Made by a program: the position numbers and the translations under genes. A stretch of DNA of 64,000 nt from a virus, in the IMG/VR virus record IMGVR_UViG_3300044680_000280, positions 248,001 through 312,000 of that record. One strand, given 5' to 3'. Of the stretch, positions 3,195 to 53,020 are shown piece after piece. The notes under the pieces are model-generated. The model saw only the letters and a list, made by a program, of their open reading frames with translations. It was not told the origin of the DNA and ran no database searches. Within the stretch, counting starts at the first letter, position 1, and the number at the start of each line of letters is the position of its first letter.

Positions 3195-4322
3195 TCAGGC
3201 CATCGACGAGACGAAGATGTTTTCCTCTGCCAATTCCACATCTTCCTCAATGGTTACCGACTCTTCCATCAGGTCGTCGGTAATGACCTGATCCTCGGCA
3301 CCCGGAGTAGGACGCATTTGAATCTGTCGACGCTCGCGGGCGATGCGGACCCAAGGACGGAGCAGACGTTGAGTGAGGCGGAGGTCATCCGGAGATAGCT
3401 CGAGCTTGCGGACAGCTTCCTCGATGTCGTACCCTTCATTGATGAACTCGAAGATCTCTTCCGCACGGGCGGCGGCGGGACTCTTGGAGATCTCCCGGAG
3501 CAGAAGGCTGAGTTCGGCACGGGCTTCTTGATTGCAGGGGGTCTTATCCGGCAGTCGGCTTTCCCAGGAGAGGGAGTCCTCGACGAGCGGGCGGAGCTCC
3601 TGGAAGGTGTCCCAAACGCGCTCCTTGTTGTGTCGCTCCTCACCTCGGCAAAAGTTCTTGAAGCGATTGTGCACCGTCTTTGAAAGGTAGTTCTGAAAAT
3701 GCCGCCGGCTCTTGGGGACGATCGTGTTGTGGTCGAGCATGACCGCGTCCTCGAAGTACTCCATCTCACCGAGTCGAATGACCGCCGCGAGATTGTAGGT
3801 AGTGTGCTTGGAGTCCGCCTTGCCCTTCAAAGGAAGGACCATCCAAGGCTCCCGGGGAACCGTCGCAACGAACGTCTTGATCGCGTCACGAAACCGTTCC
3901 CACGTGATTCCAAGGGCCTTGTGGGCTTGTTCCCCGGTGATCGTCTCCGGAACGACGACGTTGCTCTGCTCGAGAAATCGTTCGATCGCGCGGGCTTGCT
4001 TCAGTTGGAGAAAGATCTCCTGAACGATGTCACGCGTTCGGCTGTTCGCCGTGACCTTGTTGTAACGACTGATCAGGTGAACGACGAGGGCGCCGTAGAG
4101 GCGAATGAACTGGTCGTACACTTCGCGCTTGTCGAGAGACCGTATGTCGAAAATGGCCTGAATGTAGTCAGCGTAAATCGGGTCGAACGTTTCGGATTCC
4201 ACCTCGGAGCTTCGATGTCGTCGAACCTTTCGAATTCCTGTGATCTCGTCTTGGAAATCCTCCGCATCAGGTGCGTCGGGGGTGAGATTGACGACGTTCG
4301 AGGCTTGGTTTCGAATTGACAT
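3195..4322 (-). CDS. Putative ECF-like RNA polymerase sigma factor, 375 aa
   Basis: Residues about 70-115 (Y-D-Q-F-I-R-L-Y-G-A-L-V followed by D-I-V-Q-E-I-F-L-Q-L) resemble sigma region 2, the -10 recognition helix plus the V-Q-E-x-F signature of ECF factors. A second match, residues about 210-240 (F-Q-N-Y-L-S-K-T-V-H-N-R), resembles the following helix, with an insertion of about 90 residues between them. A region-4-like helix-turn-helix with S-P-D-D-L-R-L lies near residues 305-335. The tail is acidic. It is a candidate for recognising the GGTGTA elements spread over the window. Confidence in the sigma call is moderate; the gene itself is firm. Confidence 0.65.
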   Translation of the reverse strand: MSIRNQASNVVNLTPDAPDAEDFQDEITGIRKVRRHRSSEVESETFDPIYADYIQAIFDIRSLDKREVYDQFIRLYGALVVHLISRYNKVTANSRTRDIVQEIFLQLKQARAIERFLEQSNVVVPETITGEQAHKALGITWERFRDAIKTFVATVPREPWMVLPLKGKADSKHTTYNLAAVIRLGEMEYFEDAVMLDHNTIVPKSRRHFQNYLSKTVHNRFKNFCRGEERHNKERVWDTFQELRPLVEDSLSWESRLPDKTPCNQEARAELSLLLREISKSPAAARAEEIFEFINEGYDIEEAVRKLELSPDDLRLTQRLLRPWVRIARERRQIQMRPTPGAEDQVITDDLMEESVTIEEDVELAEENIFVSSMA

Positions 4323-4396: not shown

Positions 4397-5014
4397 ATGG
4401 ACCTAAGTACTCTGACGAACTACGATATTCCTTGGACTCCATTTGGAGATGAGGAGTTCAACGTGACCCAAGATCCCGAGGAGATGCTTCTCGAGTTGGA
4501 TGCGTTGAATGCGGCGGCAAATGTAGTCGAAGGACGAACCTCCGCCAACGGCGTCCGTGACTTCATTCGCTCCGTGCTGAACAAGCGCTCTACCTCTCCC
4601 GACATTGAAAACATTCTGGTGACCAGCGCCATGACCCGCGTAGCGGGTCTCGCGGTGAGTCCCGTCTCCTCTATGCTCCAACCAACGAACTGGGCGAAGA
4701 GGGTTGCTCAAACGGTTGCCATAGCGTGGATCGGATGGGCATCCGGTCAAGTAAATACAACCGAGACCCTTTTGAAAAAACTCCGAAATGAGCAACGGAC
4801 AGAAGAGTATGTACAAGAAAGCTCCGGAGCAGTCAACCTGATGTCGCTATATTTTTGGGCGGGCGCCGTAGAAGCGCTGGCCCAGGAAGATCTGTCGACT
4901 TCAAAGAGGCTCTGGAAGAGATCACTCGAGGTTGGAAGCACCTTCGGAACGAGTTCCAGCCTCCTCGTTCAGTGGTCGTACACTGCAAGTTTCTTCCCTA
5001 TGCTGGCCCCGTAG
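4397..5014 (+). CDS. Protein of unknown function, 205 aa
   Basis: Not recognised. Mostly helical, with an acidic N-terminal third (several E-E and D-P-E-E stretches) and a more hydrophobic middle around residues 85-130 that is not convincing as a membrane segment. The ATG at 4397 is preferred over the in-frame ATG at 4340 because the promoter element sits at 4374-4379. The stop codon TAG lies inside a GC-rich hairpin (GGCCCC, GTA, GGGGCC at 5004-5018). Confidence 0.7.
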   Translation: MDLSTLTNYDIPWTPFGDEEFNVTQDPEEMLLELDALNAAANVVEGRTSANGVRDFIRSVLNKRSTSPDIENILVTSAMTRVAGLAVSPVSSMLQPTNWAKRVAQTVAIAWIGWASGQVNTTETLLKKLRNEQRTEEYVQESSGAVNLMSLYFWAGAVEALAQEDLSTSKRLWKRSLEVGSTFGTSSSLLVQWSYTASFFPMLAP

Positions 5015-5080
5015 GGGCCCTGCCTTCGGGAACCGTTGCCGTTCCATCGTGTCGTGTCGGGCCCCCTTCGGGGCCGTTAT
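5004..5080 (+). terminator. Paired GC-rich hairpins after the 4397 gene
   Basis: Two hairpins with near identical stems, GGCCCC-GTA-GGGGCC and then GGCCCC-CTTC-GGGGCC, the second followed by a modest T-rich stretch (GTTATCTGTTTG). Likely the end of the upstream transcript. Confidence 0.55.
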
Positions 5081-5147
5081 CTGTTTGTCTTCGAGGTACT
5101 GTTCTCTACGGGACTGTTTCTACGGTCGTTGTTTGAATCGTGGTTGT

Positions 5148-5183
5148 TTGTGTTGTTGCGGTTGCGGTTGCGGTTGTTACGAT
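5148..5183 (+). repeat. GTTGCG hexanucleotide microsatellite
   Basis: Short run of GTTGTT/GTTGCG units in the gene-free stretch before the folded RNA. Nothing else recognisable is seen between 5080 and 5290. Confidence 0.6.
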
Positions 5184-5298
5184 CATCATCAGTGACATCA
5201 GAACCTCACCCATCCGTTCTCTCTTATATTTGATACCATCTAACCAACTGTGATCCCTGAGGATACATTGGATCGAAGATCTCCACAGGTGGAACAAT

Positions 5299-5469
5299 GA
5301 TGTCCCACCTCTATAAGGTCGCTACCTGGACGTTCCGCTCCTTCCCGTGAGGGAAAGAGAAGGCCAGCCTGACTTGGGGATGTGTTGCTACGAGTGAGCA
5401 TTCGCGTCTCACTGTAGGACCGTAACTCCGGTACGTCAAGCTCTTACCTTTTAGGTGAGGTGGGACATC
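5299..5469 (+). ncRNA. Candidate structured non-coding RNA A (about 171 nt)
   Basis: A perfect 13-bp stem (5299-5311 with 5457-5469, GATGTCCCACCTC and its complement) closes a 145-nt interior holding at least five hairpins: AGGT/ACCT at 5316-5327; TTCCC-GTGA-GGGAA at 5342-5355, whose GTGA loop is a GNRA tetraloop only if the + strand is transcribed; CTAC-AGTGAG/CTCACT-GTAG at 5388-5417; ACCG/CGGT at 5419-5432; CTTACCT/AGGTGAG at 5443-5459. No open reading frame uses it. A separate promoter element follows at 5499. It matches no RNA family I can name (not RNase P, tmRNA or 6S by motif). Confidence 0.7.
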
Positions 5470-5498
5470 GACAGAGAACTCTTGGAAGGGTAGCCTCT

Positions 5499-5504
5499 GG
5501 TGTA
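5499..5504 (+). promoter_or_regulatory. GGTGTA-type promoter element
   Basis: CTGGTGTAAGG, 12 nt before the ATG at 5517; leaderless or nearly so. Confidence 0.65.
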
Positions 5505-5516
5505 AGGAATCTCATC

Positions 5517-5834
5517 ATGATGACGTTACTGGAATTCTCGGATGTGAATGGGAAACCCCAGGTTAAGATCGATCTTCCGCCGCTTCTCATGGGATCGAAG
5601 GTGCGGTTGCACCTTAGTCTTCAGCGTACGAGTGGGGCTCGAAATGAGATCCTCGTCGTTGACGGACAGTTTCGAGTCGCTGCGGTCGGTGTAGATGCAG
5701 GATGTTCTCCACAGAGACAGGTGGTTTCCGTGGAATCTCTGAACGTCACCCCGACGTGGCGGTCGATCAAGAAAACAGTTGAATGGAGGCGTGCGCTTCC
5801 CCCTGTGAGGGCTCCGCGCACGATTGTTGAATGA
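5517..5834 (+). CDS. Protein of unknown function, 105 aa
   Basis: Not recognised. Beta-rich sequence with alternating hydrophobic residues; a small globular beta protein is likely. The start is set by the promoter element 12 nt upstream; a second ATG follows at once. The stop overlaps the next ATG (ATGA), so it is coupled to the 5831 gene. Confidence 0.65.
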   Translation: MMTLLEFSDVNGKPQVKIDLPPLLMGSKVRLHLSLQRTSGARNEILVVDGQFRVAAVGVDAGCSPQRQVVSVESLNVTPTWRSIKKTVEWRRALPPVRAPRTIVE

Positions 5835-6136
5835 GGATCACACCGATTGAACCGGAGGCTCTACGGGGTCTTCCACGCACGATCTCGATGGGAGGAACGA
5901 AGCACGTCTCGGTCTACCACGGGACGCCCCTCGAGATGGTCCGCAGCATGGCTTCTGAGATGGGGTTGGGTACGGACGTACACGAAGCCGTCTCCACACT
6001 ACTAGACGCTCTGGGGCGCAACCGCGGCGTTCTGATCGCCATCCCTGAGGATGCTCCCGAGGACGTCGTCGCAACCCTCTTCGTTTACGCGCTCCTCGAC
6101 TCGGGTGTCTCTCGGGCGGTTACGGCTGAGAGCTGA
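5831..6136 (+). CDS. Protein of unknown function, 101 aa
   Basis: Not recognised. The ATGA overlap with the upstream gene suggests a two-gene operon. Residues about 35-65 look helical and the end (V-V-A-T-L-F-V-Y-A-L-L) is hydrophobic but short for a membrane segment. Its 3' end overlaps the convergent dCTP deaminase gene by 17 bp. Confidence 0.65.
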   Translation: MRITPIEPEALRGLPRTISMGGTKHVSVYHGTPLEMVRSMASEMGLGTDVHEAVSTLLDALGRNRGVLIAIPEDAPEDVVATLFVYALLDSGVSRAVTAES

Positions 6137-10984: not shown

Positions 10985-11238
10985 GGAGATCGCCATGAGG
11001 CCAGGAGAACCATGGCCTCATGAGTGGTCTTCTCCCTTACTAGAGCCATATCATACATAGCCTCTAAGGCGACGATTGCGGTTCCGCTGGCCAGGGCACC
11101 GTAGATACATTTGTCCAAAACATCGAGAATAGTTATCGCTTTTGGTGGAGATTCCCATTTTTCGATCAGAGGCTTTACGCTGGCATCCAATTGGGAGTCC
11201 GGAGCTCGCAGTAGCAGGGTCTTTAGTTGGTCAGACAT
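10969..11238 (-). CDS. Protein of unknown function, 89 aa
   Basis: Not recognised; helical throughout with a hydrophobic stretch near residues 45-62 (A-L-A-S-G-T-A-I-V-A-L) that might be buried or weakly membrane-inserted. Start is fixed by a GGTGTA element 10 nt upstream, divergent from the VWA gene promoter. Confidence 0.65.
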   Translation of the reverse strand: MSDQLKTLLLRAPDSQLDASVKPLIEKWESPPKAITILDVLDKCIYGALASGTAIVALEAMYDMALVREKTTHEAMVLLASWRSPQSSL

Positions 11239-11248
11239 ATGCCATTTT

Positions 11249-11254
11249 TACACC
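11249..11254 (-). promoter_or_regulatory. GGTGTA-type promoter element (leftward)
   Basis: TTGGTGTA on the - strand, 10 nt before the ATG at 11238. Confidence 0.65.
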
Positions 11255-11270
11255 AACATGATTCACATGC

Positions 11271-11277
11271 CGGTGTA
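11271..11277 (+). promoter_or_regulatory. GGTGTA-type promoter element for the VWA gene
   Basis: CGGTGTA, exactly 10 nt before the ATG at 11288. Confidence 0.7.
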
Positions 11278-11287
11278 TGTGCCGCGC

Positions 11288-13621
11288 ATGAACAGCTACC
11301 AGGTGAACCCAAACCTTTACCTCGTCGTGAATGAGGTAAGTAAGGCCCCAGCAACCAAGATCGTTGATGTCCCCGTCGACCATATTCTCGTGTACGACTG
11401 CTCGGGGAGTATGAGCTATGACTTACCGAAAATACGGGAGCAGGTGAAGAAGAAGCTTCCGAAGATGCTCGGGCCGAATGATCGCCTCAGCATAGTGTGG
11501 TTCTCGGGCCGCGTAGAGCACGGAATTCTCCTTGAAGCTGAACCGGTAGCGACGCTATCGGATCTCAAGACCATCGAGCAAACAATCGATCGGTGGCTTC
11601 GTCCTGTCGGGATGACGGGCTTCAAGGGGCCTCTCGAAGACGTGGTCGCGCTCGCGCAACGTTTGGAGAAGACGGGTGGTAATAGAGCACGGTCGATGAT
11701 GTTCTTTACCGACGGCTGTGACAACCAGTCCAGCCAGAACGAAGTTCTCAAAGCAGTTGAGAACGCGGGCATGCATGTACAATCGGCAACCTTCGTCGAA
11801 TATGGTTACTACGCCAACCGACCCCTGCTAGCCCAAATGGCTGAGAAGAGCGGCGGATCCCTTATCTTTGCCGAGACCTTCGACAAATACGAACCTCAGT
11901 TCGAGGCGTCCATCAAACGCAAGAGCACGAATGCCAAACGAATCGAGGTCACCCTCAAAGGTGACCCGGTCGGTGGGTTTGCCTACGCTCTCCAAGGTGG
12001 AGATCTCGTAACATTCGGTGTCGAGGGCGGAAAGATTTCCGTTCCAGAGGACCTCGGCCAATTCTACTACCTGTCTCCGTCATGCGTCGGAACTCTTGCT
12101 TCGGGTACAAGCATGAAGGGGCTCGACGCCACCCTTTCCGCTGTATACGCAGCGATCAGCCTCTTTTCCGTTCGCATGAAGCCTGACGTTGTGCTCCCCC
12201 TTCTCAAGGTGACGGGCGACGCGAGGTTCATCAAGGATTTCTCGACTTGCTTCGGCAAGCAGAAGTACAGCGCCTTCATGGACGCCACCAAGGCGGCGGC
12301 TTTCGATCGGGATCTGCGGTTGAAGGACGGGTACAACCCGAACCTCGTTCCGCCCGATGACGCGGTCACCGTTCTCGATGTACTCGAGACCCTTTATGAG
12401 GATGAGAGCGCGCGTATCCTCCTCAACGATATGACGTACACGAGCATCGGCCGGGGACGGCTCGACGCCACGGATCAGCTCACGGCGGAAGAGCAAACCC
12501 AAGTCGACACTCTCACCGAGGAGATGGGTAAGACCAAGGACGCGAAGAAGATTCGACTTCTTGCCCAGCAAATCGCCGACATCACTGACAAGCCGGAGGC
12601 CCTCAAGTTCAAACGGGAGGTACCGTCGTCGGGTCTGCCCATCAAGAACCTGACCTTCAACGAGGACCGTCCCAACGTAAGCTTCCTCGTTCAAATCCCG
12701 GGTACCATCGACCTTTCGAGTCGCATCGACAAGGCGACGATCGACTTGACGGGCGTCCCGACCATTTTCAAGTGCTTCCAGTTCCGAAACTATGCCGTCA
12801 TTAAGGATGGGCTCGTCAACATCGAGAAGCTCCCCGTCATCGTGTCCCAGAAGACCTTCGACAAGTTTTTGGCCGAGGGCGTCGTGACGAAGGAGGATGT
12901 TCTACGGCTCGAAACCGACGGGCACTCCGTCGGCTTGTGCATTAATCTCAAGTCCCTTCCCGTCATCAACCGCAAGATGGTGAAGGAGCTCAGCGCCAAG
13001 ACCTTCTTCGAGACCGCGTATGAGGTCACCAAGGCCAAGGCGGCGCAGAAGGTACTCAAGGACTATGCCAAGTCTCTCCTGCCGGAGAAGCAAAGCGTCG
13101 GCTATGCGGACAAATACGGCCAGGAGATCGCCGTGTGGCTCAAGGAGCAAGGGATCACGGACTACAACGGATTCCAGCCTCCCCATACGACGTCGGCGCC
13201 GACGACCGATGTATACACGGGTAAGGAACTGAAGGTCTCCCTCAAGGGACTCTCATCTCTGCCCAAGGTTGCCGAAGTGAAGGCGAAGATCCAAAAGGTG
13301 GGCTCCAAACTCAACGCCCCGTCCGCCCTCATGGCGGAGACGATCAAGGAAGTGGAGGCGTTCCTCTCAAGTGCCGTCTACTTGAAGGCGGCTGACCAGC
13401 CAGGGGTCCTCCAGGCGTGGCTCGACGGACAGACGAAGGCGTCGATCAGGAAGACCCGCGCGCTCATGCTCGACATGGCCAAGTTCACGTTTACGACCGT
13501 CGTCGGTCAAACCTGGTTCAAGGAGTTCTCCTCCGTGGACCAGACAGACATGACGATCACCGTGGACGGTAACGACATTCCGTGCAAGGTGGAAATGAAA
13601 GAGATTGAGATCAGGGTGTAG
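11288..13621 (+). CDS. VWA-domain protein, 777 aa
   Basis: Residues about 35-215 are a von Willebrand factor A domain with a full metal site: D-C-S-G-S-M-S (DxSxS), a Thr in G-M-T-G-F-K-G, and F-F-T-D-G-C-D. VWA domains bind partners through the chelated metal, often in complexes with ATPases or secreted and chaperoned proteins. The remaining 550 residues are not recognised and have no membrane segment. The ATG at 11288 lies 10 nt after a promoter element; an upstream TTG frame is spurious. It heads the ABC transporter-like locus but is separated from the next gene by the opposite-strand 13622 gene. Confidence 0.85.
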   Translation: MNSYQVNPNLYLVVNEVSKAPATKIVDVPVDHILVYDCSGSMSYDLPKIREQVKKKLPKMLGPNDRLSIVWFSGRVEHGILLEAEPVATLSDLKTIEQTIDRWLRPVGMTGFKGPLEDVVALAQRLEKTGGNRARSMMFFTDGCDNQSSQNEVLKAVENAGMHVQSATFVEYGYYANRPLLAQMAEKSGGSLIFAETFDKYEPQFEASIKRKSTNAKRIEVTLKGDPVGGFAYALQGGDLVTFGVEGGKISVPEDLGQFYYLSPSCVGTLASGTSMKGLDATLSAVYAAISLFSVRMKPDVVLPLLKVTGDARFIKDFSTCFGKQKYSAFMDATKAAAFDRDLRLKDGYNPNLVPPDDAVTVLDVLETLYEDESARILLNDMTYTSIGRGRLDATDQLTAEEQTQVDTLTEEMGKTKDAKKIRLLAQQIADITDKPEALKFKREVPSSGLPIKNLTFNEDRPNVSFLVQIPGTIDLSSRIDKATIDLTGVPTIFKCFQFRNYAVIKDGLVNIEKLPVIVSQKTFDKFLAEGVVTKEDVLRLETDGHSVGLCINLKSLPVINRKMVKELSAKTFFETAYEVTKAKAAQKVLKDYAKSLLPEKQSVGYADKYGQEIAVWLKEQGITDYNGFQPPHTTSAPTTDVYTGKELKVSLKGLSSLPKVAEVKAKIQKVGSKLNAPSALMAETIKEVEAFLSSAVYLKAADQPGVLQAWLDGQTKASIRKTRALMLDMAKFTFTTVVGQTWFKEFSSVDQTDMTITVDGNDIPCKVEMKEIEIRV

Positions 13622-15980: not shown

Positions 15981-17777
15981 ATGGCTACTCGTGTCAAACC
16001 GCTCCCGAAGATTCTCCTGGCACTCGCCCTCTTCGGCGGCCTCTTCTTCGTCTTTCACACCCTCGTCGCCAACGGCATCATCTCTCTGCCGGGAACCGCC
16101 GCCGAGGTTCCCAAGGTCGCCGCCGTTCCTACGGCGATTCCGACCGCAACGTCCGCTCCTCTTGTTCCCGCCGTGCCGATGCCGTCGGGCTCCGCCATCT
16201 CGAGCGGGACGAACATTCGAGCCTCCATGTGGGCATGGAACGCTCAAATGGGATTCATGTTCGCCAACGGCGGCCCCGATACGACGTCGGGCTCTCTCAT
16301 GGCCCAACACGGACTGAACGTCCACGTCAAGCGCGAGGACGACACGTCCAAGATGCAAGGAATGCTCATGGCTCTTGCCAAAGGCCTCAAGACCGACCCG
16401 AACACGTCCGCGGGTGTGCACTTCATCACGCTGATGGGCGATGGTACCGCGGCCTTCTTCGCCGCCGCCAACCCCGAGCTCAAGAAGATCTGCAAGGACT
16501 GCGAAGCCGAAGTCGTCGGTGTTCTCGGCTACTCGCGCGGTGAGGACAAGCTCATGGGTCCCGCCGAATGGAAGTCCAACCCGAAAGCCGCTCGCGGTCA
16601 CCTCATCGCGGGCGTCATCCGTGACGGAGACTGGAACGTTGCCATGAAGTGGGCGGGGGACAACGGACTGCTCAACAATCCCGACGAGACTACGTATGAC
16701 CCAGACGCACTGAACTGGCTCAACGCCGACACCTACATCGAGGCTGGGAACAAGTACATCTTGAACGTCTGTGAGCCTCGTCCCGTCGTCCACGGGGGCA
16801 AACGAACGGGCGAGACCAAGAGTGTCTGCGTCGACGGCGTCGTGACCTGGACTCCCGGAGACGTGAACGTGGCCCAAAAGAAGGGCGGTCTCGTTTCGAT
16901 CATCTCGACCAAGGAGTACAGTGGTCAAATGCCTTGCGCCCTTATTGGCATCAAGAAGTGGGACGTAGCCCACAAGACCGAGATCGAAGGCTTCCTGAAA
17001 GCCTCGTTCGATGGTGCGGATCAAGTTCGCCAATACCCGAGCGCCCTGCACAAGGCCGCGGAAATCAGCGCAGCGGTCTACGCAGACCCGGAAGCCAACG
17101 CCGATTACTGGGAGAAGTACTACAAGGGCACGTTAGAGACCGACCGTCAGGGCGTGAAAGTCTCTCTCGGTGGATCGTCCGTCTCCAATCTCGCTGACAA
17201 CCTCCAGATCTTCGGGCTCGCCCCGGGTTCCGCCAACCTTTACGAAGCCACCTACGTGACGTTCGGGGACATCGTGGTGCAGCAGTACCCGAAGCTCGTG
17301 CCGAACTACCCCAAGGTGACCGACGTCGTAAACGTGTCGTTCGTTCAGGATCTCGCAAATTCCGCTCCCCCTTCCCCCGCCGCAACCGCCGAACACAACA
17401 CCTTCGTTGCCGGCGCCCCGGTCGAAACGGTCTCCAAGAAATCGTGGTCGATCAACTTCGAAACGGGTAAAGCAACATTCACGCCAGACGCGATGAAAAC
17501 CCTCACGCAACTCGAGCGCGAACTCGTCATCACTGACCTCGCCATCGAAGTCGACGGTCATACGGACAACACGGGTGACCCATCATTCAATCAGACCCTC
17601 TCGAAGCAGCGCGCGGCGGCTGTTCAGACCTGGCTCTCACAGCAGTCCAGCGCGAACTTCCCACCCGAGCGATTCACCGTTCAAGGCTACGGAGATTCCA
17701 AGCCTATCGCAACGAACTCGACGCCCGTTGGTCAAGCAAAGAACCGTCGAGTCGACGTCGTCCTCGGTCAGCAGTAA
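15981..17777 (+). CDS. Solute-binding-protein/OmpA-like fusion, 598 aa
   Basis: An N-terminal membrane anchor or uncleaved signal (residues 9-29) is followed by a proline/alanine-rich linker and a domain (about 75-450) resembling nitrate/taurine-type ABC solute-binding proteins. The last 120 residues are an OmpA peptidoglycan-binding domain: F-E-T-G-K-A-T-F, then V-D-G-H-T-D-N-T-G and N-R-R-V-D-V-V-L. Together they suggest an inner-membrane anchored periplasmic protein that also grips the cell wall. The fusion is unusual for a transporter, where the binding protein is normally free. It precedes the permease and ATPase genes. Confidence 0.85.
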
Positions 17778-17798
17778 TCAGCAGTTCCAAAGCAGATT

Positions 17799-17837
17799 CT
17801 GGGGTCTCAGTTTCCATATTGAGGCCCCAGCTCTTTT
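17799..17837 (+). terminator. Intrinsic terminator or attenuator within the ABC-like operon
   Basis: CTGGGGTCTCA pairs with TGAGGCCCCAG with one mismatch and is followed by CTCTTTT. It lies between the OmpA-fusion gene and the permease gene, so it could reduce expression of the transport genes relative to the upstream ones. Confidence 0.7.
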
Positions 17838-17849
17838 AATGAGGGTACC

Positions 17850-18638
17850 ATGAACAGACACGACTTGTCCGAAGCTCTCAAACCGAACGGCCATGTGTCA
17901 TCCAGAGCCACCACGATCCTTTTCGTCGGCACCCTCGTGGCCCTCATCGGGGCCTGGTTCGCTCGACCCGACTTCATTCCCGGTCCCGTCGAGGTGGCTC
18001 AAGCGTATCCCCGACTGTTCGATCAGGGTCTCTTCTATCAGCTCTACATCAGCCTCTCGACAAACCTTCAAGCCATCGCCCTCTCCTGCTTCTTTACGAT
18101 TCCGTTGGCGTACTTGAGCGTTCTTCCCGTCATGCGGCCCCTCGTCCACATGCTTTGCAAAGGACGGTTCCTCGGTGTCACCGGGTTCGTCATCCTCTTC
18201 ACCATCTTCTTCGGCGGTGGACACGCGCTGAAGGTCGCTTTGCTCGTCTTTGGAATGAGCTTGTTTCTCGTGACATCTCTTTTTGACATCGTCGAGAGCA
18301 TCCCCCGAGAGGAGTTTGACCACACCCGAACGCTCCGCATGGGGGACTGGGGCTCGGTGATCGAGGTGGTTATCCTAGGAAGGTTCGACCAGGTTCTCGA
18401 CGCCATCCGTCAGAACGCTGCCATGGGTTGGGTCATGTTGACCATGGTGGAGGGACTCGTCCGGTTCGAAGGAGGACTGGGGGCTCTCATGCTGGCTGAG
18501 GACAAGCATATCAAACTGGACGCCGTCTTCGCCGTTCAAATCATCGTTCTGGTCATCGGTATCCTTCAGGACGTCGCCCTCCGTGCCATACGGCACCTTC
18601 TTTGCCCCTATGCCGAACTATCCCTCGAAAGGCATTAG
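17850..18638 (+). CDS. ABC transporter permease, nitrate/taurine type
   Basis: 262 aa with about six membrane segments (first at residues 22-38; others near 67-90, 100-120, 125-145, 185-205 and 225-245). The loop E-F-D-H-T-R-T-L-R-M-G-D-W is the EAA coupling motif that contacts the ATPase. This resembles the BPD-type permeases of nitrate/sulfonate/taurine importers. It has its ATPase two genes downstream and a binding-protein fusion upstream, so a full transporter-like complex is encoded. What it moves, if anything, cannot be read. Confidence 0.85.
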   Translation: MNRHDLSEALKPNGHVSSRATTILFVGTLVALIGAWFARPDFIPGPVEVAQAYPRLFDQGLFYQLYISLSTNLQAIALSCFFTIPLAYLSVLPVMRPLVHMLCKGRFLGVTGFVILFTIFFGGGHALKVALLVFGMSLFLVTSLFDIVESIPREEFDHTRTLRMGDWGSVIEVVILGRFDQVLDAIRQNAAMGWVMLTMVEGLVRFEGGLGALMLAEDKHIKLDAVFAVQIIVLVIGILQDVALRAIRHLLCPYAELSLERH

Positions 18639-18640
18639 AC

Positions 18641-18862
18641 ATGAATCCCCTCAAACAACGAGAACAAATCCTCGTCGACTTTCTCTGTTTCATGCTGTTT
18701 GGACTCGTACTGTTCTTATTCGGAGGAGTCCCCCTTGTTCGTATGATTGGTGCCACGATCATCGCAAGCACCATCATCATTCACGGGTATGTCCAAATGC
18801 GGCTCTGCCAACAGATTGAGAAAGACGGTTACGATTCAGTAACCGGGGAGAAGAAGTCGTGA
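18641..18862 (+). CDS. Small two-segment membrane protein, 73 aa
   Basis: Two hydrophobic segments (residues about 12-31 and 33-52) and a short charged tail. It lies 2 bp after the permease and overlaps the ATPase start by GTGA, so it is a regular member of the operon, perhaps a transporter accessory subunit. Not recognised. Start at 18641 is preferred over the upstream in-frame ATG inside the permease gene. Confidence 0.7.
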   Translation: MNPLKQREQILVDFLCFMLFGLVLFLFGGVPLVRMIGATIIASTIIIHGYVQMRLCQQIEKDGYDSVTGEKKS

Positions 18863-19680
18863 GTCAGGTCTGTGAACGCAAAGAAGTTCTCGTCAAGCTC
18901 GACAACATCTCCCTATCCTTTGACGGGCGGCCGGTTCTCTCCGACATCAACGCGGAAGTTCGGGACATCGTTCGTCCAGGTTGCGTGACGGGTCAGGTCG
19001 TAGGAATCCTCGGCCCGAGCGGTGTGGGAAAAACTCAGCTCTCGCGAATCATGACTGGACTCATGGAGCCAACGACGGGCGCCGTACGAGTCGGCGTCAG
19101 GCTCGAACCGATCCACGCTGGACTTGTTGGCTACGTTGCCCAGAACTACCCTCTTCTCCGTCACCGGACCGTGCTCGGGAATCTCATGGTTGCCGCTCGT
19201 CGTTCGGGCCTGAGCTCCGACGGGGCAAAGGATAAGGCGATGGGATACCTCGGCATGTTTGGACTCCAAGACAAGTGGGACGCTTATCCCGCTCAGTTAT
19301 CGGGTGGACAGCGCCAACGAATCGCCATTGCCCAGCAGCTTCTATGCTCGGAGCACTTCCTCATTCTGGATGAGCCAACAACGGGACTCGATCCCATCAT
19401 GAAGGACAAGGTCTGCGGTTTCATTCGTCAGGTTGCCAGCCTCTACGAGGAGAACACGATCTTCGTCATCACTCACGACATCTCGGCGATCCTCACGATT
19501 GCTGACACACTTTGGGTCCTCGGGCGCCGTAAGGACGCGGCGGGCAACGCCATCGGGGCGACCATCGTCAAGACTTACGACCTCATCGAACGTGGCATCG
19601 CCTGGGAAACGGACGTCGCCACCACCCCGCAGTACCGCGACGCTCAACGAGAGATTCGATCTCTATTTGAGACCCTCTAG
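18859..19680 (+). CDS. ABC transporter ATP-binding protein
   Basis: 273 aa. Walker A G-P-S-G-V-G-K-T (residues 54-61), Q-loop V-A-Q-N-Y, signature L-S-G-G-Q-R-Q-R, Walker B L-I-L-D-E-P-T-T-G-L-D and the switch His in V-I-T-H-D are all present, so it should hydrolyse ATP. It belongs with the permease to a nitrate/taurine-type import complex. GTG start overlapping the upstream stop. Its 3' end overlaps the convergent 19663 gene by 18 bp. Complete ABC importers are rare in phages. Confidence 0.92.
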   Translation: MSQVCERKEVLVKLDNISLSFDGRPVLSDINAEVRDIVRPGCVTGQVVGILGPSGVGKTQLSRIMTGLMEPTTGAVRVGVRLEPIHAGLVGYVAQNYPLLRHRTVLGNLMVAARRSGLSSDGAKDKAMGYLGMFGLQDKWDAYPAQLSGGQRQRIAIAQQLLCSEHFLILDEPTTGLDPIMKDKVCGFIRQVASLYEENTIFVITHDISAILTIADTLWVLGRRKDAAGNAIGATIVKTYDLIERGIAWETDVATTPQYRDAQREIRSLFETL

Positions 19681-39265: not shown

Positions 39266-39297
39266 GGTACCTCTACTCGTACGCCCGTTTGGGTTGA

Positions 39298-39326
39298 AAT
39301 GCACGAACTAAATGGGCCGCGGTCAA
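39298..39326 (-). promoter_or_regulatory. Sigma70-like promoter
   Basis: TTGACC, 17 nt, TGCATT on the - strand; 32 nt before the ATG at 39265. The rest of 39266-39425 holds only a CCCGTCC/GGACGGG hairpin (39341-39360). Confidence 0.4.
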
Positions 39327-39425
39327 CCCGTGGTGCCGTACCCGTCCCCGGCCGGACGGGCTGCAAAGCCAGAGGTCAAAAAAGACACGGTTCGTTACAA
39401 AATAGTTTCTGAAACCAAAAACCTC

Positions 39426-39432
39426 CGGTGTA
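39426..39432 (+). promoter_or_regulatory. GGTGTA-type promoter element
   Basis: CCGGTGTATTGACTAG, 10 nt to the ATG at 39443. Confidence 0.7.
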
Positions 39433-39442
39433 TTGACTAGCT

Positions 39443-39760
39443 ATGGACACCCTTTCAACCCAAATCAAAAACCTCGCCGCTCAATTCGCCGACGACGTCG
39501 TCACGGCCTTCCTGTCCTCGTCTCCGAACGAGATTCAGAGCCTGACGAGCCGCCCCCGAACCACCACCACCGCCGCTCGCGCCCCGCGGACCACGAATCC
39601 GGCAACGCGCTCTGGACGCCTCCCCAAAATCCAGAGTCGATTGTATCAGGTCGGAGACCGCTTCTACCTCGACACGAGCGACGGCCGGACCTACACCAGC
39701 ACCCGAAAGCGAGACCTCATCCGACGCGCCGCCGCGCGCGGTATCGAAGTCAACGTCTGA
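39443..39760 (+). CDS. Protein of unknown function, 105 aa
   Basis: N-terminal helix, then a Thr/Ala/Arg-rich low-complexity linker (residues 38-58) and a small domain with Y-L-D-T-S-D-G-R-T-Y. Modular plan and basic linker suggest a DNA-associated protein; no family recognised. Confidence 0.6.
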   Translation: MDTLSTQIKNLAAQFADDVVTAFLSSSPNEIQSLTSRPRTTTTAARAPRTTNPATRSGRLPKIQSRLYQVGDRFYLDTSDGRTYTSTRKRDLIRRAAARGIEVNV

Positions 39761-47658: not shown

Positions 47659-48123
47659 TCATTCGTCCTCTTCGGGACAGGACGAATCCCCGATGGCCGC
47701 CGCCGTGATCTCCCTCACTCGTTTCTGCTCCCGTTTCAAAAACTCCTCAACCGTAATGCCCAGCTCCCCCGCCCGCTTCTCCGCCGTCTCCCGTACCGAT
47801 GGCCATTTCACACGGTCCCGAAGAGGACCCTCCTTTTCCTTGGGAACCACGACGATTCCCCGTCGGAGCGTCTCCTCCGCGGTCACCATCCATCGCAATT
47901 CGCGAACGATGGATCGCTGAACTCGCTCCGACGGTTCCACCTTCCCCTCTATCCACCGAGTAACCGCAAACGGAGCCACTTCCAAGAGCTCCGCCATTTG
48001 TTCCACGCTTACCCCGCTGAGCGATATCCCGTCCCGAACAAGGTCGGCAAAGCTCCCCTCGTCCTCGAATAGGAACAGCCTCGCCCTCGTCAGGTACGAA
48101 CCCAAATCGCCCAGTACGTCCAT
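47659..48123 (-). CDS. HTH (Cro/CI-type) DNA-binding protein, 154 aa
   Basis: Residues about 25-80: S-V-E-Q-M-A-E-L-L-E-V-A-P-F-A-V-T-R-W-I-E-G is a helix-turn-helix of the XRE type. C-terminal helix with E-E-F-L-K-R-E. Likely repressor or activator. The ATG at 48123 sits 7 nt after TATCTT of a promoter. Confidence 0.75.
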   Translation of the reverse strand: MDVLGDLGSYLTRARLFLFEDEGSFADLVRDGISLSGVSVEQMAELLEVAPFAVTRWIEGKVEPSERVQRSIVRELRWMVTAEETLRRGIVVVPKEKEGPLRDRVKWPSVRETAEKRAGELGITVEEFLKREQKRVREITAAAIGDSSCPEEDE

Positions 48124-48130
48124 GATCCCG

Positions 48131-48159
48131 AAGATACGCGGAAACAATCTCCGGGTCAA
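48131..48159 (-). promoter_or_regulatory. Sigma70-like promoter
   Basis: TTGACC, 17 nt, TATCTT, 7 nt, ATG at 48123 (leaderless). Confidence 0.6.
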
Positions 48160-48170
48160 GAAGTTCGCCT

Positions 48171-48177
48171 CGGTGTA
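48171..48177 (+). promoter_or_regulatory. GGTGTA-type promoter element
   Basis: CGGTGTATCAGTAGGGC, 10 nt to the ATG at 48188. Divergent from the HTH gene promoter, so the HTH protein may act here. Confidence 0.7.
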
Positions 48178-48187
48178 TCAGTAGGGC

Positions 48188-48601
48188 ATGATGACCGACG
48201 CCAAAAGTCACATGGAATACTTCACCTTCGCATGTGAGCACGTATGCCCCGAACGGAAATTCTCTGCCGCCGACATCCAAGGCGTAACCCTTGGGGGTAC
48301 TTCCATCGGCTTACGATGCGCCTGCGGCGACGAAGTACGCCTGGGCTTGAGCATCGCAAAAGCCCTGCCCAAACCGATCCAACCCTACCTGCTGACAACA
48401 GAAGCCCGTCTCGAAACTTTGAAACGTATCAATGAGGACCCGAAAACCCTCCTCTCCGAACTGATGAACTCGGGCGGCTGGTTCCAGCCAGACCCAGGAG
48501 TCGCCAAGATGACCGCCATGGCTGCCTTTATGGGTCCCGAAGGCAACCCCATGCAGAAAAAACTCGAAGCCATGTTCGATGCCCAACCAAAGACGTCATG
48601 A
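48188..48601 (+). CDS. Protein of unknown function, 137 aa
   Basis: Four Cys (C-E-H-V-C, C-A-C) in the first half could bind zinc; helical C-terminal half. Coupled to the 48598 gene by ATGA. Confidence 0.6.
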   Translation: MMTDAKSHMEYFTFACEHVCPERKFSAADIQGVTLGGTSIGLRCACGDEVRLGLSIAKALPKPIQPYLLTTEARLETLKRINEDPKTLLSELMNSGGWFQPDPGVAKMTAMAAFMGPEGNPMQKKLEAMFDAQPKTS

Positions 48602-48831
48602 ACACCGACCAACTGAAGGACGCCATCTGCCTCGCGAAGGGAATCCTGGCCGAAGCCCAGGTAAGTATTGACCACGCATTTCCGCTACCGCCCGACTCAA
48701 GGTACGAGCCGCTCGAGTGCAGAGAATGCACCCTCGCCCGAGCTGTCCTGGAACTCTCCGACAGGCTAGGAGAGAAAGAGGCGGAGAGATTCGACCGCAA
48801 CTTCGTCGAAACTCAGAGAGATCAGCCCTAA
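48598..48831 (+). CDS. Small helical protein, 77 aa
   Basis: C-R-E-C near residue 41 and helical flanks. Probably the operon partner of 48188. Overlaps the convergent 48828 gene. Confidence 0.6.
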   Translation: MNTDQLKDAICLAKGILAEAQVSIDHAFPLPPDSRYEPLECRECTLARAVLELSDRLGEKEAERFDRNFVETQRDQP

Positions 48832-49067
48832 CCCCTCTCCCACTTCCCCTCATCATTCCACCTTCCAGACCCAAGAAGGAACGACGGCGACCCAGGCTCC
48901 CCCTCAAATGGGGCCCTCGAGTTCCCCTCGGGTCGGGACAACCCGTGCTTTCTCAGCCGTCGACCCCGACGGGCATTCTCAATGTCCCACATCACAAGAG
49001 CCACAAAGACCGCCGCGCCCCACAGCACCATCGAAACCGCGCCCCGTACCCGTTTCCAAATGCCCAT
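48828..49067 (-). CDS. Small membrane protein, 79 aa
   Basis: A hydrophobic segment (residues 10-26, A-V-S-M-V-L-W-G-A-A-V-F-V-A-L-V-M) after a basic start, then an Arg/Gly-rich soluble tail. Start set by the promoter element 9 nt away. Confidence 0.55.
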   Translation of the reverse strand: MGIWKRVRGAVSMVLWGAAVFVALVMWDIENARRGRRLRKHGLSRPEGNSRAPFEGEPGSPSFLLGSGRWNDEGKWERG

Positions 49068-49076
49068 GGGAAAGGT

Positions 49077-49083
49077 TACACCG
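49077..49083 (-). promoter_or_regulatory. GGTGTA-type promoter element
   Basis: CGGTGTAACCTTTCCC on the - strand, 9 nt to the ATG at 49067. Confidence 0.65.
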
Positions 49084-49113
49084 AAGACGAACAGCGGGCG
49101 GGGGCTCGATGAT

Positions 49114-49150
49114 GTCGACGAACATCGAACCCAGCTCGATGTTCGTCGAC
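49114..49150. repeat. 15-bp perfect inverted repeat plus third copy
   Basis: GTCGACGAACATCGA and its complement around a 7-nt loop, with a further direct copy of TCGACGAACATCGAACCCA at 49168-49186. Possible operator or structured element. Confidence 0.6.
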
Positions 49151-49188
49151 GCAGTTCGATGAGTGGCTCGACGAACATCGAACCCATG

Positions 49189-49202
49189 CCCGCGAAGCAG
49201 GG
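49189..49202 (+). repeat. Interspersed hairpin repeat, copy 1
   Basis: CCCGCGAAGCAGGG, a small imperfect hairpin found in about seven copies at 49.2-53.7 kb. Confidence 0.6.
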
Positions 49203-49204
49203 CG

Positions 49205-49440
49205 GTGGGGGTTTCCCCTTTTGGTCAAAAAGTATACCGACCTAAAAAATTCTGTTATTTTTCAAGGGCTTACCCAAAAAGGAATGACGTATGGGGTTAT
49301 CCGTATTACCATCTAACCGACCCGGGACCATACGTATACTCAATATGCCCCTTTCCCGAGATCTGTGAGGGCGAGTAAGATAATGGAGCGGTTCTACGCT
49401 CACTGTAACTAGACCGCCTCGATCGGTATACCCGACCCCG
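49205..49440. other. AT-rich gene-free stretch
   Basis: Locally AT-rich (around 49228-49330), with several GTATAC-type palindromes and no protein-like frame. Could be an operator or replication region; I see no coding evidence. Confidence 0.4.
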
Positions 49441-49454
49441 CCCTGCTTCGCGGG
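49441..49454 (-). repeat. Interspersed hairpin repeat, copy 2
   Basis: Reverse orientation (CCCTGCTTCGCGGG). Confidence 0.6.
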
Positions 49455-49463
49455 CCCGGGTCG

Positions 49464-49865
49464 ATGATCCCCACTGAACAGACTTACCATACAGCACTGA
49501 ACTACCTACATCGCGCCATCTGTTCAGCACTGGTCACGTCAAGGGCTGAACAGAAGCCCTCACTGAACGCTGAGCTCAATCAGGTGTGGGCGAAAATCAC
49601 ATGTACCCACCTCTGGGCGATTCGAAGAGCGAGCTCCAAGATGGGACCCAAAAGGGGCGGCGGGGGTCGCACTACGGTTCAGTTCGCTACACACGAACGA
49701 ACCTACACACCTACCTACGAACACGGGCGGGTCGTGTGTGTGGTGGGCGGCGCCCAGGTATATATACCAGTGTTCGTAGAGGGGGGAGCGGTGAAGGTAT
49801 ATGGGGAACAAACACAAGCCCGCGGAGCAGGGCCCGGTGTATGTGATTCTATGGGCAATAATTGA
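49464..49865 (+). CDS. Doubtful coding frame, 133 aa
   Basis: The first 60 residues look helical and plausible, but the second half runs through repeats and the frame overlaps the 49801 gene. The segment 49470-49575 also holds five CACTGAAC/CTGTTCAG elements, so it may be regulatory DNA. Confidence 0.3.
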   Translation: MIPTEQTYHTALNYLHRAICSALVTSRAEQKPSLNAELNQVWAKITCTHLWAIRRASSKMGPKRGGGGRTTVQFATHERTYTPTYEHGRVVCVVGGAQVYIPVFVEGGAVKVYGEQTQARGAGPGVCDSMGNN

Positions 49866-50115
49866 AGCTGGCCCTCTTGGGCTACCCCGCAAGTGGCGTA
49901 TGAGGTTGGGGTCGGACCACATCGTTCACCTCGAGTGGAGCCACGACCACATCACCTGGACGACCGTCCCTCGAGTGGCCCTCCCGACGACGTATGGAAC
50001 GGGCACCTACGTCACATGGGACCTCGTGGGGGACCTGATGCAAGAAGGGGTTCCCGGAGCGCCCGCTTCCATTGGGGAACAAGCACAAGCCCGCGAAGCT
50101 GGGCCCGGTGTCTGA
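49801..50115 (+). CDS. Protein of unknown function framed by repeats, about 104 aa
   Basis: The centre (H-I-V-H-L-E-W-S-H-D-H-I-T-W-T-T-V) is protein-like, as in small beta domains of phage proteins. Both ends of the frame are copies of the interspersed repeat (reading A-E-Q-G-P-V and A-R-E-A-G-P-G-V). The true start is unsure: 49801, 49843 (GTG) or 49900. Confidence 0.45.
   Translation: MGNKHKPAEQGPVYVILWAIIEAGPLGLPRKWRMRLGSDHIVHLEWSHDHITWTTVPRVALPTTYGTGTYVTWDLVGDLMQEGVPGAPASIGEQAQAREAGPGV
49819..49832 (+). repeat. Interspersed hairpin repeat, copy 3
   Basis: CCCGCGGAGCAGGG within a longer direct repeat of about 37 nt shared with copy 4; followed by CGGTGTA. Confidence 0.6.
50090..50103 (+). 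repeat. Interspersed hairpin repeat, copy 4
   Basis: CCCGCGAAGCTGGG; flanks AACAAGCACAAG and CCGGTGT match copy 3. Confidence 0.6.
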
Positions 50116-50144
50116 ACTGTTAACCGAGCCTGGGGTCAGAACCC

Positions 50145-50246
50145 CTAACGCCGCGCCGAGGATGCCCTCAGAGGGGCTTTGGGAGGACGCCTAGGCTTGG
50201 AGCCGTCCATATCGGGCGATGGGCTGTTGAGCCGGCTGATGTCCAT
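50145..50246 (-). CDS. Small basic proline-rich protein, 33 aa
   Basis: Directly after structured RNA E on the same strand, with AAGGAGAG 8 nt before the ATG. Basic and proline-rich (K-P-R-R-P-P-K-A-P). RNA E could be its regulatory leader. Confidence 0.45.
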   Translation of the reverse strand: MDISRLNSPSPDMDGSKPRRPPKAPLRASSARR

Positions 50247-50268
50247 CTCGGCTCTCCTTGCAGAAACG

Positions 50269-50392
50269 GTCAGTGAGCCCCGATTTAGGGTTGCGAGCCC
50301 TAGACCCACCCGAGGATACCTCCTGCGCTTCCCACGCGTAGGCACTTCAATGGTACCGGCCCTACCTCGGAAGCCCATCGGGGCTCACTGAC
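50269..50392 (-). ncRNA. Candidate structured RNA E (124 nt)
   Basis: A 16-bp perfect stem (50269-50284 with 50377-50392) encloses TAGGG/CCCTA (near 50286-50302), CCGAGG/CCTCGG and CCTGCGC/GCGTAGG. A TTGAAC-TTACTA promoter on the - strand predicts a start about 50392, exactly the 5' base of the stem. It precedes a ribosome binding site and a 33-aa frame, so it may be a cis-acting leader or an independent RNA. Confidence 0.7.
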
Positions 50393-50397
50393 ACAAG

Positions 50398-50426
50398 TAG
50401 TAAAGCGCCGGGAAGGCGGAGTTCAA
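50398..50426 (-). promoter_or_regulatory. TTGAAC-class promoter of RNA E
   Basis: TTGAAC, 17 nt, TTACTA; transcription expected from about 50392. Confidence 0.65.
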
Positions 50427-50453
50427 GTGGATGAGCTCAAGGTTTCGCTCTTT

Positions 50454-50642
50454 TTACTCGCCAGTGTCCTGTAGCTCCCACAACGGCTGTGTGTTCAGCA
50501 CGAGAGCCCGCACCGCCGCCGCGAGTGCGGTGACCGCGTCATTGAGGCGCCCGTTCTCGCATTCGCCCAGGTCCTTCTCCACCTGCTCCACCTGCTCGAG
50601 TATCCGTAGCCCGGCGACCGACAGCGTGTTTACCTTCGCCAT
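50454..50642 (-). CDS. Small helical protein, 62 aa
   Basis: Leucine/valine-rich helix throughout (L-R-I-L-E-Q-V-E-Q-V-E-K), possibly a coiled coil. GAAAGG precedes the ATG. Confidence 0.6.
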   Translation of the reverse strand: MAKVNTLSVAGLRILEQVEQVEKDLGECENGRLNDAVTALAAAVRALVLNTQPLWELQDTGE

Positions 50643-50670
50643 GTCTCGATTCCTTTCGTAGAAAAATCTC

Positions 50671-50832
50671 TCAGCTCATCCACCACTGAAGCAGGCGAGT
50701 CCACCAGCTCGGGAGATGGGCTTGCACGTGACTGCGCCAGGCATACTCCGCCAACTCGCACCGTACGATGAACTGTTTGTCGCAAATGGGGCAGCGCACG
50801 GCACCTCTGGGGAGGTCTACATCGAGCCCCAT
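50671..50832 (-). CDS. Small zinc-finger protein, 53 aa
   Basis: C-P-I-C-D-K-Q-F and later H-V-Q-A-H form a C2H2-like finger; W-rich end. Its ATG overlaps the upstream stop (TGATG), so it is coupled to the 50832 gene. Confidence 0.6.
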   Translation of the reverse strand: MGLDVDLPRGAVRCPICDKQFIVRCELAEYAWRSHVQAHLPSWWTRLLQWWMS

Positions 50833-51005
50833 CAGTGGCCACAGACCGTGCATTTGACGCGGTCGCTCGGGGAGCCGTTCCGATTGATCCGCTCCTCCGT
50901 GTGACCGCAGGCAAGGACGAACGTCCAATGGTTCGCGGGAACGGCACGACGGCTCCGACGACGAACGATCGTGGTCTCGACCTTGAAAGAGCTGATGACG
51001 TCCAT
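50832..51005 (-). CDS. Small zinc-binding protein, 57 aa
   Basis: A-C-G-H and C-T-V-C-G-H suggest a zinc site. Basic N-terminal half. Start lies 6 nt after TGTACT of a TTGAAC promoter. Confidence 0.6.
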   Translation of the reverse strand: MDVISSFKVETTIVRRRSRRAVPANHWTFVLACGHTEERINRNGSPSDRVKCTVCGH

Positions 51006-51011
51006 GGTGAA

Positions 51012-51040
51012 AGTACAGCTCGGAGCGGGGCGAAGTTCAA
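51012..51040 (-). promoter_or_regulatory. TTGAAC-class promoter
   Basis: TTGAAC, 17 nt, TGTACT, 6 nt, ATG at 51005. Confidence 0.7.
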
Positions 51041-51213
51041 ACTTTGGGCTCATTCACCTGAGCTCGCAAAGCGATCGCTTCTTTTCGTGCGGACCAAGCA
51101 TCGGCGAACAGGGCATTAGCCGACCATGCGTCATGGTTGTCAGCCGCGGCCTCTGCCCGCTCTTCCAAGGCCGCCGCCTCTCGGTCCAACTCGTCGGCTC
51201 TCAACTCGTTCAT
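51037..51213 (-). CDS. Small Ala/Glu-rich helical protein, 58 aa
   Basis: One long helix (A-A-A-L-E-E-R-A-E-A-A-A) and a shorter one with R-K-E-A-I-A-L-R. Ribosome binding site AGGAGGG. Stop overlaps the next TTGAAC promoter. Confidence 0.55.
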   Translation of the reverse strand: MNELRADELDREAAALEERAEAAADNHDAWSANALFADAWSARKEAIALRAQVNEPKV

Positions 51214-51332
51214 GGTCCGTCCCTCCTGAAGGTAGTAAAGCGCCCGGACGATGAAAGTTCAATCCCCCGCCCCTTGGGGGAGTCTAGACCGAGCCCATTT
51301 TCCTCGAGCTCCGGCCGCCGAAAACGTTTCAT
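51210..51332 (-). CDS. Possible 40-aa basic peptide
   Basis: Arg/Lys-rich; its TGA overlaps the ATG of the 51037 gene (ATGA). A TTGAAC promoter lies inside it, which argues against independent importance. Confidence 0.3.
   Translation of the reverse strand: MKRFRRPELEENGLGLDSPKGRGIELSSSGRFTTFRRDGP
51234..51262 (-). promoter_or_regulatory. TTGAAC-class promoter
   Basis: TTGAAC, 17 nt, TTTACT; 20 nt to the ATG at 51213. Confidence 0.6.
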
Positions 51333-51364
51333 TGCGGGGAACCTCACTTTTACCTACATGCAAC

Positions 51365-51436
51365 GCCTCGAGCCCGAAGGAGCTCCGTTTCCCCGGTGTA
51401 GGCTAAGTCCCCTCGAGCCCGAAGGAGCTCGGTTCT
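51365..51436 (+). repeat. Direct repeat of CTCGAGCCCGAAGGAGCTC with a GGTGTA element between
   Basis: Two copies of an 18-20 nt sequence that can form a hairpin, flanking CGGTGTA at 51394-51400. No gene follows, so the element's role is unclear. Confidence 0.5.
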
Positions 51437-51481
51437 CCATTTGGGCTTGCACAGCCGAAAAAATCCGGCAGATTGTGTCGG

Positions 51482-51592
51482 GTAAAGGTAACGTCACACC
51501 TTGAGATGACGAGACCTGATCAGTCGTATGGCGTAAAGGTAACGTCACACCTTGAGATGACGAGTCGTATGGCGTAAAGGTAACGTCACACC
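51482..51592 (+). repeat. Iteron-like direct repeats
   Basis: Three copies of GTAAAGGTAACGTCACACC (51482, 51533, 51574), the first two extended by TTGAGATGACGAG. No gene uses the region 51440-51695, which reads as protein-binding DNA. Confidence 0.65.
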
Positions 51593-51683
51593 CCTCTCGG
51601 CAGCCGTCGAAAGCTTCAGCCGAGAGGTCTCGATATGGCAGCTCAGAGCCTTCGTATCTGAGACTTGTAACGACTGATCAGGT
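51514..51683. repeat. 14-bp inverted repeat ACCTGATCAGTCGT
   Basis: Arms at 51514-51527 and 51670-51683 flank most of the iteron region. The 20-mer containing the second arm (51665-51684) also occurs exactly at 4060-4079 inside the sigma-like gene. Confidence 0.55.
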
Positions 51684-51714
51684 GGAGGTGGCCCGATGAG
51701 CCCCTCGAGCGGGT

Positions 51715-51743
51715 TTGAACCTTGGACGGTTCCGCGCTGTACT
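51715..51743 (+). promoter_or_regulatory. TTGAAC-class promoter
   Basis: TTGAAC, 17 nt, TGTACT, 6 nt, ATG at 51750. Confidence 0.75.
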
Positions 51744-51749
51744 TCTCCC

Positions 51750-52157
51750 ATGAGCACTGAGACAACGACGATGGAAACGGCAACGACAACGACCCTCGAG
51801 AGCCTCTTGGCGGGTCACGAAGTTTCTGAGCCGCGTGTAGTCAGCCTGCAACTCGCGATTGAGCTCGGAGCTGACAAGGCGACCCTAGAGCGCATCCGCG
51901 ACGCAGCGAAGGTGAACCGACGTGATTTCATGGTCTTACCGGCTCACCGATTCGAAAACCTGAGCCGAGGGCGCGGCTGGGCCCGCAAGGGTCGAGGGGA
52001 CAACGTGGCATGGGGAGAGCGGTGCGACGGCGGCTACCGCGTCGGCCCTGGCCGCTGGTCAGTCGGCGCTACGGACGGATACAGCCGCAAGGCCTCCGTC
52101 GAGTGGCAGGTCGAACAGATTGTCGTCGGCGCCGAGACGTGGACGATCGCGAACTGA
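51750..52157 (+). CDS. Protein of unknown function, 135 aa
   Basis: Thr-rich start (M-E-T-A-T-T-T-T), then a helix and a Gly/Arg-rich domain (R-G-R-G-W-A-R-K-G-R-G) ending W-T-I-A-N. Leaderless. No family recognised. Confidence 0.6.
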   Translation: MSTETTTMETATTTTLESLLAGHEVSEPRVVSLQLAIELGADKATLERIRDAAKVNRRDFMVLPAHRFENLSRGRGWARKGRGDNVAWGERCDGGYRVGPGRWSVGATDGYSRKASVEWQVEQIVVGAETWTIAN

Positions 52158-52176
52158 ACCCCGTTTCAAACGACAC

Positions 52177-52205
52177 TTGAACCCCGTTCGGTTCCGCGCT
52201 GTATT
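52177..52205 (+). promoter_or_regulatory. TTGAAC-class promoter
   Basis: TTGAAC, 17 nt, TGTATT, 7 nt, ATG at 52213. Confidence 0.75.
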
Positions 52206-52212
52206 TCCTCCC

Positions 52213-52848: not shown

Positions 52849-52854
52849 TCCCCC

Positions 52855-52970: not shown

Positions 52971-53020
52971 ACGATCCCCTAACGTGATACGCTGAGCTCC
53001 TCGTAGAGCCCCGCATTCGA

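Follow-up and report, generated by a model that had tools for sequence, protein, structure and literature searches.

Does the folded segment A, at positions 5299-5469 of the window (the whole stretch of 64,000 nucleotides analysed here), belong to a structured noncoding RNA of this phage, or is it a regulatory leader, a feature of the DNA, or a product of chance? A is located within a gap of 502 nt (5015-5516) flanked by the ORFs 4397-5014 and 5517-5834. The features of the gap and its neighbourhood are:

3195-4322, minus strand: sigma-factor-like gene, conserved and adjoining the cassette; the label reflects a weak Sigma70_r2 match (score 19.7, below the Pfam cut-off of 24 bits)
4397-5014, plus strand: conserved 205-aa gene upstream of the gap; HMM match in six of the seven relatives described below, not in L017
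5060-5075, plus strand: terminator-like hairpin with a T-rich tail, which would end the mRNA of ORF 4397-5014
5138-5190, no strand: triplet-like low-complexity tract (GTT/GCG; AAC/CGC on the minus strand)
5299-5469, plus or minus strand: structure A, a multibranched fold with good folding on both strands
5299-5311, plus strand: GATGTCCCACCTC, the 5' arm of the stem of 13 bp that closes A; paired with a probability of about 0.98 whether flanks are included or not
5342-5355, plus strand: hairpin TTCCC-GUGA-GGGAA, with a GNRA loop as plus-strand RNA; the relative L016 has similar GUGA hairpins
5457-5469, plus strand: GAGGTGGGACATC, the 3' arm of the same stem; likewise paired with a probability of about 0.98 whether flanks are included or not
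5499-5504, plus strand: GGTGTA start motif, between A and ORF 5517-5834
5517-5834, plus strand: conserved 105-aa gene downstream of the gap; no Pfam or PHROGs match
5831-6136, plus strand: conserved gene of 101 aa, the second one downstream of the gap; without a Pfam match

Fold of segment A

A first-pass annotation had described A as a perfect 13-bp stem closing over five inner hairpins, one of them with a GNRA loop, and as far beyond chance in a gene-free region of 500 bp, without resemblance to a known RNA class. The closing stem is confirmed, with 145 nt between its arms and a mean pair probability of at least 0.976 on both strands and in all seven contexts tried. The GUGA hairpin is likewise present, but the minimum-energy fold of the plus strand has four inner branches rather than five. 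Folded exactly from 5299 to 5469, the plus strand reaches -70.5 kcal/mol (z = -3.5, 1 of 200 shuffles as good) and the minus strand -74.1 kcal/mol (z = -6.05, 0 of 200 shuffles as good). When flanks are included (5240-5520), the z-score of the plus strand drops to -1.39 and 14 of 200 shuffles fold as well. After GC correction, 11 (plus strand) and 4 (minus strand) of 1,596 segments of equal size are more extreme than A. We note that these statistics flatter A, since the stretch was picked after being seen. The gap yielded no conserved ORF, and the departure of A from chance had been overstated.

Under an order-1 Markov model, 0.09 perfect inverted repeats per window are expected with arms of 13 bp or more and a spacer of 60-200 nt. 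At a minimal length of 12 bp and the same spacing, the window contains five repeats versus 0.58 expected (order-1 Markov), and 100 kb of flanking genome contain none. Two of the five are found at 47665-47828, within a predicted gene (weak HTH match), and at 39288-39464, overlapping a probable gene start (ORF 39443). The best long-range helix in the gap of the window is equalled in 2 of 120 shuffles.

Searches for a known RNA class agree with the annotation. The Rfam 15 covariance models give no match in the whole window at gathering thresholds, and none up to an E-value of 10 in the 581 bases around A (4980-5560). In the seven relatives, Rfam yields nothing relevant (two irrelevant sub-threshold matches only), and ARAGORN reports neither tRNA nor tmRNA in the window or the relatives. 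A occurs as a single copy in its own virus record of 406,734 bp, and no similar DNA was found in the phages or plasmids collections. A 19-nt match to A at L007:12904 was discarded: it is located where apparent genes begin or end, and its fold has a z-score of -0.03.

Conserved gene order around the gap

Seven distant huge-phage contigs from IMG/VR keep a common order, consisting of the sigma-like gene (minus strand), usually the 205-aa gene (plus strand), the gap, and the 105-aa and 101-aa genes (plus strand). Profile HMMs recover the sigma-like, 105-aa and 101-aa genes on these strands in the window and in all seven relatives, and the plus-strand 205-aa gene in six of the seven. A search with the 101-aa gene gave L015 (59%), L016 (53%) and L017 (43%); a search with a four-sequence alignment then gave L028-L031. 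Contig L018, returned for the 101-aa gene, has no HMM match and was left out, and L025-L027 and L032-L034 are repeats of the L015-L017 contigs. Single-protein searches with the sigma-like and 105-aa genes added no relatives, an alignment of the sigma-like proteins returned known contigs only, and a search of genome contigs returned none. The phages collection holds no match for the sigma-like proteins of the window and L015 or for the L016 homologue of the 105-aa protein; for the 105-aa protein of the window it gives only two matches, both with an E-value of 0.7.

Although identity between the flanking proteins has fallen to about 40-59%, the gap keeps its position, with sizes from 325 nt (L029) to 987 nt (L031) by the gap limits used. 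Comparison of 182 ORF segments from the gaps results in one strong match, a minus-strand gene in L016 and L028 to the left of the core. All other matches are weak (E-value 3e-4 or worse) and no reading frame is conserved in the core, for which reason a hidden gene at A was rejected.

Comparison of sequence and fold within the gap

The gaps have 28 10-mers in common, compared with 7.2 in shuffles, and 0 of 200 shuffles have as many. Neighbouring 10-mers overlap, and the number of shared events is therefore smaller than 28. Shared 6-, 7- and 8-mers are not in excess: 35, 59 and 45 of 200 shuffles, respectively, have as many. Four of the 28 gap pairs align at z of at least 4, the best being L017-L028 (z = 6.8, mononucleotide shuffles); alignment of the gap of the window with those of the seven relatives is not significant (z from -0.4 to 2.9). 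T-rich triplet-like tracts are visible by eye in all relatives except L029. In L015, L017 and L031, but in no other, T at one phase is above every one of 100 shuffles.

With respect to structure, the long-range helix of L031 stands out like that of the window (equalled in 4 of 120 shuffles). In the other five of the six relatives tested, the best long-range helix is unremarkable and is equalled in 77 (L015), 24 (L016), 43 (L017), 86 (L028) and 118 (L030) of 120 shuffles; L029 was included neither in this test nor in the RNAalifold alignment. The latter (MAFFT, seven gap sequences) gives 0.0 kcal/mol on the plus and -0.7 kcal/mol on the minus strand, essentially no consensus fold, the gaps being too diverged to align. 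Local fold z-scores of the relatives are mixed, without strand preference. On the plus strand, the gaps contain 10 GNRA hairpins (4.2 in shuffles, 4 of 200 with as many) and 7 UNCG hairpins (2.1 in shuffles, 2 of 200 with as many); the corresponding values for the minus strand are 7 versus 4.2 (24 of 200) and 3 versus 1.6 (49 of 200). The locus is partly conserved: position and weak traces of sequence are kept, and neither the alignment, in which no covariation is supported, nor the helix test lends support to a conserved fold or 13-bp stem.

Candidate promoter motifs and direction of transcription

Across 164 kb of this phage, no hexamer is more enriched than GGTGTA at 6-22 nt ahead of ATG ORFs. 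It precedes 91 of 1,502 start candidates (including nested ATGs), where 8.8 would be expected; a control stretch a further 40 nt upstream has 12. Throughout the phage, the motif is found about 10-13 nt before ATG, for example at 7486 (plus), 11254 (minus), 46886 (minus) and 53749 (plus) in the window, and it also precedes ATG in relatives. GGTGTA is a candidate dedicated promoter, perhaps that of the neighbouring sigma-like factor. In six of the seven relatives (L015, L016, L017, L028, L030 and L031), a leftward, minus-oriented GGTGTA is located at the right edge of the gap, 59-127 nt before the 105-aa gene; it is absent in the window and in L029. The leftward motif, with no conserved ORF behind it in the core, suggests leftward noncoding transcription in the relatives. 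We note that TACACC, present in six of the eight gaps, is not exceptional among all hexamers and has weight only through the earlier selection of GGTGTA.

A second promoter class, TTGAAC-N16/17-(T/C)(G/T)TA(C/T)T, is represented by 26 strict sites over 164 kb, almost all just before start codons. Sites of the form TTGAAC-N16/17-TGTACT include 24433 (plus), 51040 (minus), 51262 (minus), 51715 (plus) and 52177 (plus) in the window. The class is absent from the loci of 11 relatives examined, and A as one of its transcripts was rejected, the best local score ranking 569th or worse. Beside A itself, neither a leftward GGTGTA nor a promoter of the TTGAAC type was found in this phage. Terminator-like sites have no consistency across relatives. 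As to the strand of a putative transcript, the leftward motif in relatives and the shuffle z-scores favour minus, and the GNRA and UNCG hairpins favour plus.

Other structures and genes in the window

Two further structures are found in the window. Structure C (50269-50392, minus strand) consists of a perfect 16-bp closing stem over 92 nt (z = -4.8 on the minus strand). A TTGAAC-type promoter (50426-50399) ends six bases before it, so that structure C has the appearance of an RNA that begins with its own closing stem; it is followed by a 33-aa frame with a GGAGA resembling a ribosome site (by eye). Structure C is a better-supported candidate for a noncoding RNA or leader than A. Structure D (51514-51683) has a 14-bp closing stem (z = -5.0 on the plus, -5.5 on the minus strand), and one of its hairpins recurs at L011:1293-1331 with a paired change from T-A to C-G. 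Its 3' arm (51665-51684) has an exact 20-nt match inside the sigma-like gene (4060-4079, E-value 5e-4); a plus-strand RNA from structure D would be antisense to the mRNA of that gene. The region from about 48000 to 53000 contains the cumulative GC-skew minimum (164 kb examined), repeats and many inverted repeats, and is a possible replication origin.

The phage also encodes an OmpA-domain protein and an ABC-transporter ATPase (15981-19680). For an 832-aa protein (11123-13621), the matches listed include four IMG/VR contigs with 51-55% identity and Ackermannviridae-like phages with about 32-35% identity.

Alternative explanations

The gap is found directly upstream of the 105-aa and 101-aa genes in all eight phages, as expected of a cis-acting leader, in which the gap would be the 5' untranslated region of this gene pair and A a riboswitch- or attenuator-like regulatory fold. 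The GNRA and UNCG hairpins on the plus strand point the same way, as does AGGTGGAACA (5285-5294), which by eye is identical to part of the 3' arm in 9 of 10 positions and could pair with the 5' arm in competition with it while the RNA is being made. A strand switch of this kind was rejected, however, the competing hairpin having a probability of 0 at equilibrium. Moreover, a GGTGTA start motif stands between A and the 105-aa gene in the window (5499) as well as in L015 (4671), hence the mRNA of the 105-aa gene probably starts after A, and no promoter was found upstream of A. We regard a leader as unlikely. Slightly less likely again is that the gap acts as DNA instead of through an RNA, in a regulatory or structural role (as divergent promoters, binding sites, or a site of recombination or replication), with the inverted repeat as a feature of the DNA. 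The about equal folding of both strands, the opposed GGTGTA motifs in L015 and L030, the low-complexity tract, and the failure to obtain an alignable RNA fold are consistent with such a role. A replication origin at A is nevertheless disfavoured and was rejected, as, over the 164 kb covered, the minimum of the cumulative GC skew lies near 48-52 kb of the window, about 46 kb away; a mobile element with terminal inverted repeats was rejected because A is a single copy without phage or plasmid matches and no target-site duplication was seen.

The gap may also be real and its 13-bp stem and fold due to chance. Stems of this kind are expected at the low rate given above, the helix test does not support conservation of the stem, the z-score with flanks is about -1.4, and the repeat at 39288-39464, also long and perfect, overlaps a probable gene start. 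Yet only 2 of 120 (helix) and 0-1 of 200 (fold) shuffles are as good, and the stem falls in the one gap found conserved. We consider chance the least probable of these explanations.

A candidate noncoding RNA locus

The explanation we favour, tentatively and just short of calling it probable, is that A belongs to a noncoding locus conserved in a clade of huge phages, and that this locus produces a structured noncoding RNA of about 170-450 nt. It is favoured by the kept position of the gap, the lack of a conserved protein in the core, the residual similarity between the gaps of the relatives, the unusual foldability of A, the plus-strand GNRA and UNCG hairpins, and the leftward GGTGTA. The annotation had graded A a strong candidate for a new folded RNA; with the gap kept at the same place in seven relatives, the candidacy is upheld at a lower grade. 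We consider the locus a reasonable, not a strong, candidate for a phage structured noncoding RNA, with a function that we only infer.

In such a scheme, the gap region would give rise to a separate transcript. The 13-bp stem would, in this phage, bring both ends of that RNA together to form a closed particle with several branches, which may resist nucleases or be cut out by a double-strand RNase, and the RNA could have a regulatory role for the phage, either on neighbouring genes or in trans. A more far-reaching version, which we consider doubtful, is that the clade carries beside the sigma-like gene a conserved and fast-evolving noncoding RNA locus, composed of a low-complexity tract and an ornate structured domain and transcribed from GGTGTA promoters of the phage itself. 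A would then be the version of this phage, with the 13-bp stem closing it, and the locus would represent a new family among the large phage RNAs, one that location and not sequence defines. If true, a noncoding locus can keep its position while its sequence becomes unalignable. Few noncoding RNAs are known from huge phages; a gene-free locus that keeps its place beside a sigma-like factor and a candidate promoter motif offers a concrete starting point for RNA-seq.

Comparison with known systems

A literature search at the level of titles and abstracts found nothing on the locus of A or on a GGTGTA phage promoter. Riboswitch and attenuator leaders share with A the location upstream of a conserved gene pair; A differs from them by the start motif between A and the gene, by the lack of an Rfam riboswitch match, and in that no terminator was found between. 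The RNase III-processed stems of phage and rRNA precursors resemble A in the long perfect stem closing over an RNA; processing of A is putative, and the helix test does not support conservation of its closing stem. GOLLD and ROOL have Rfam families; A has no Rfam match and is much shorter than these RNAs. A resembles these large ornate and often phage-linked RNAs (PMC12286853) in that it encodes no protein, is gene-free, and is multibranched.
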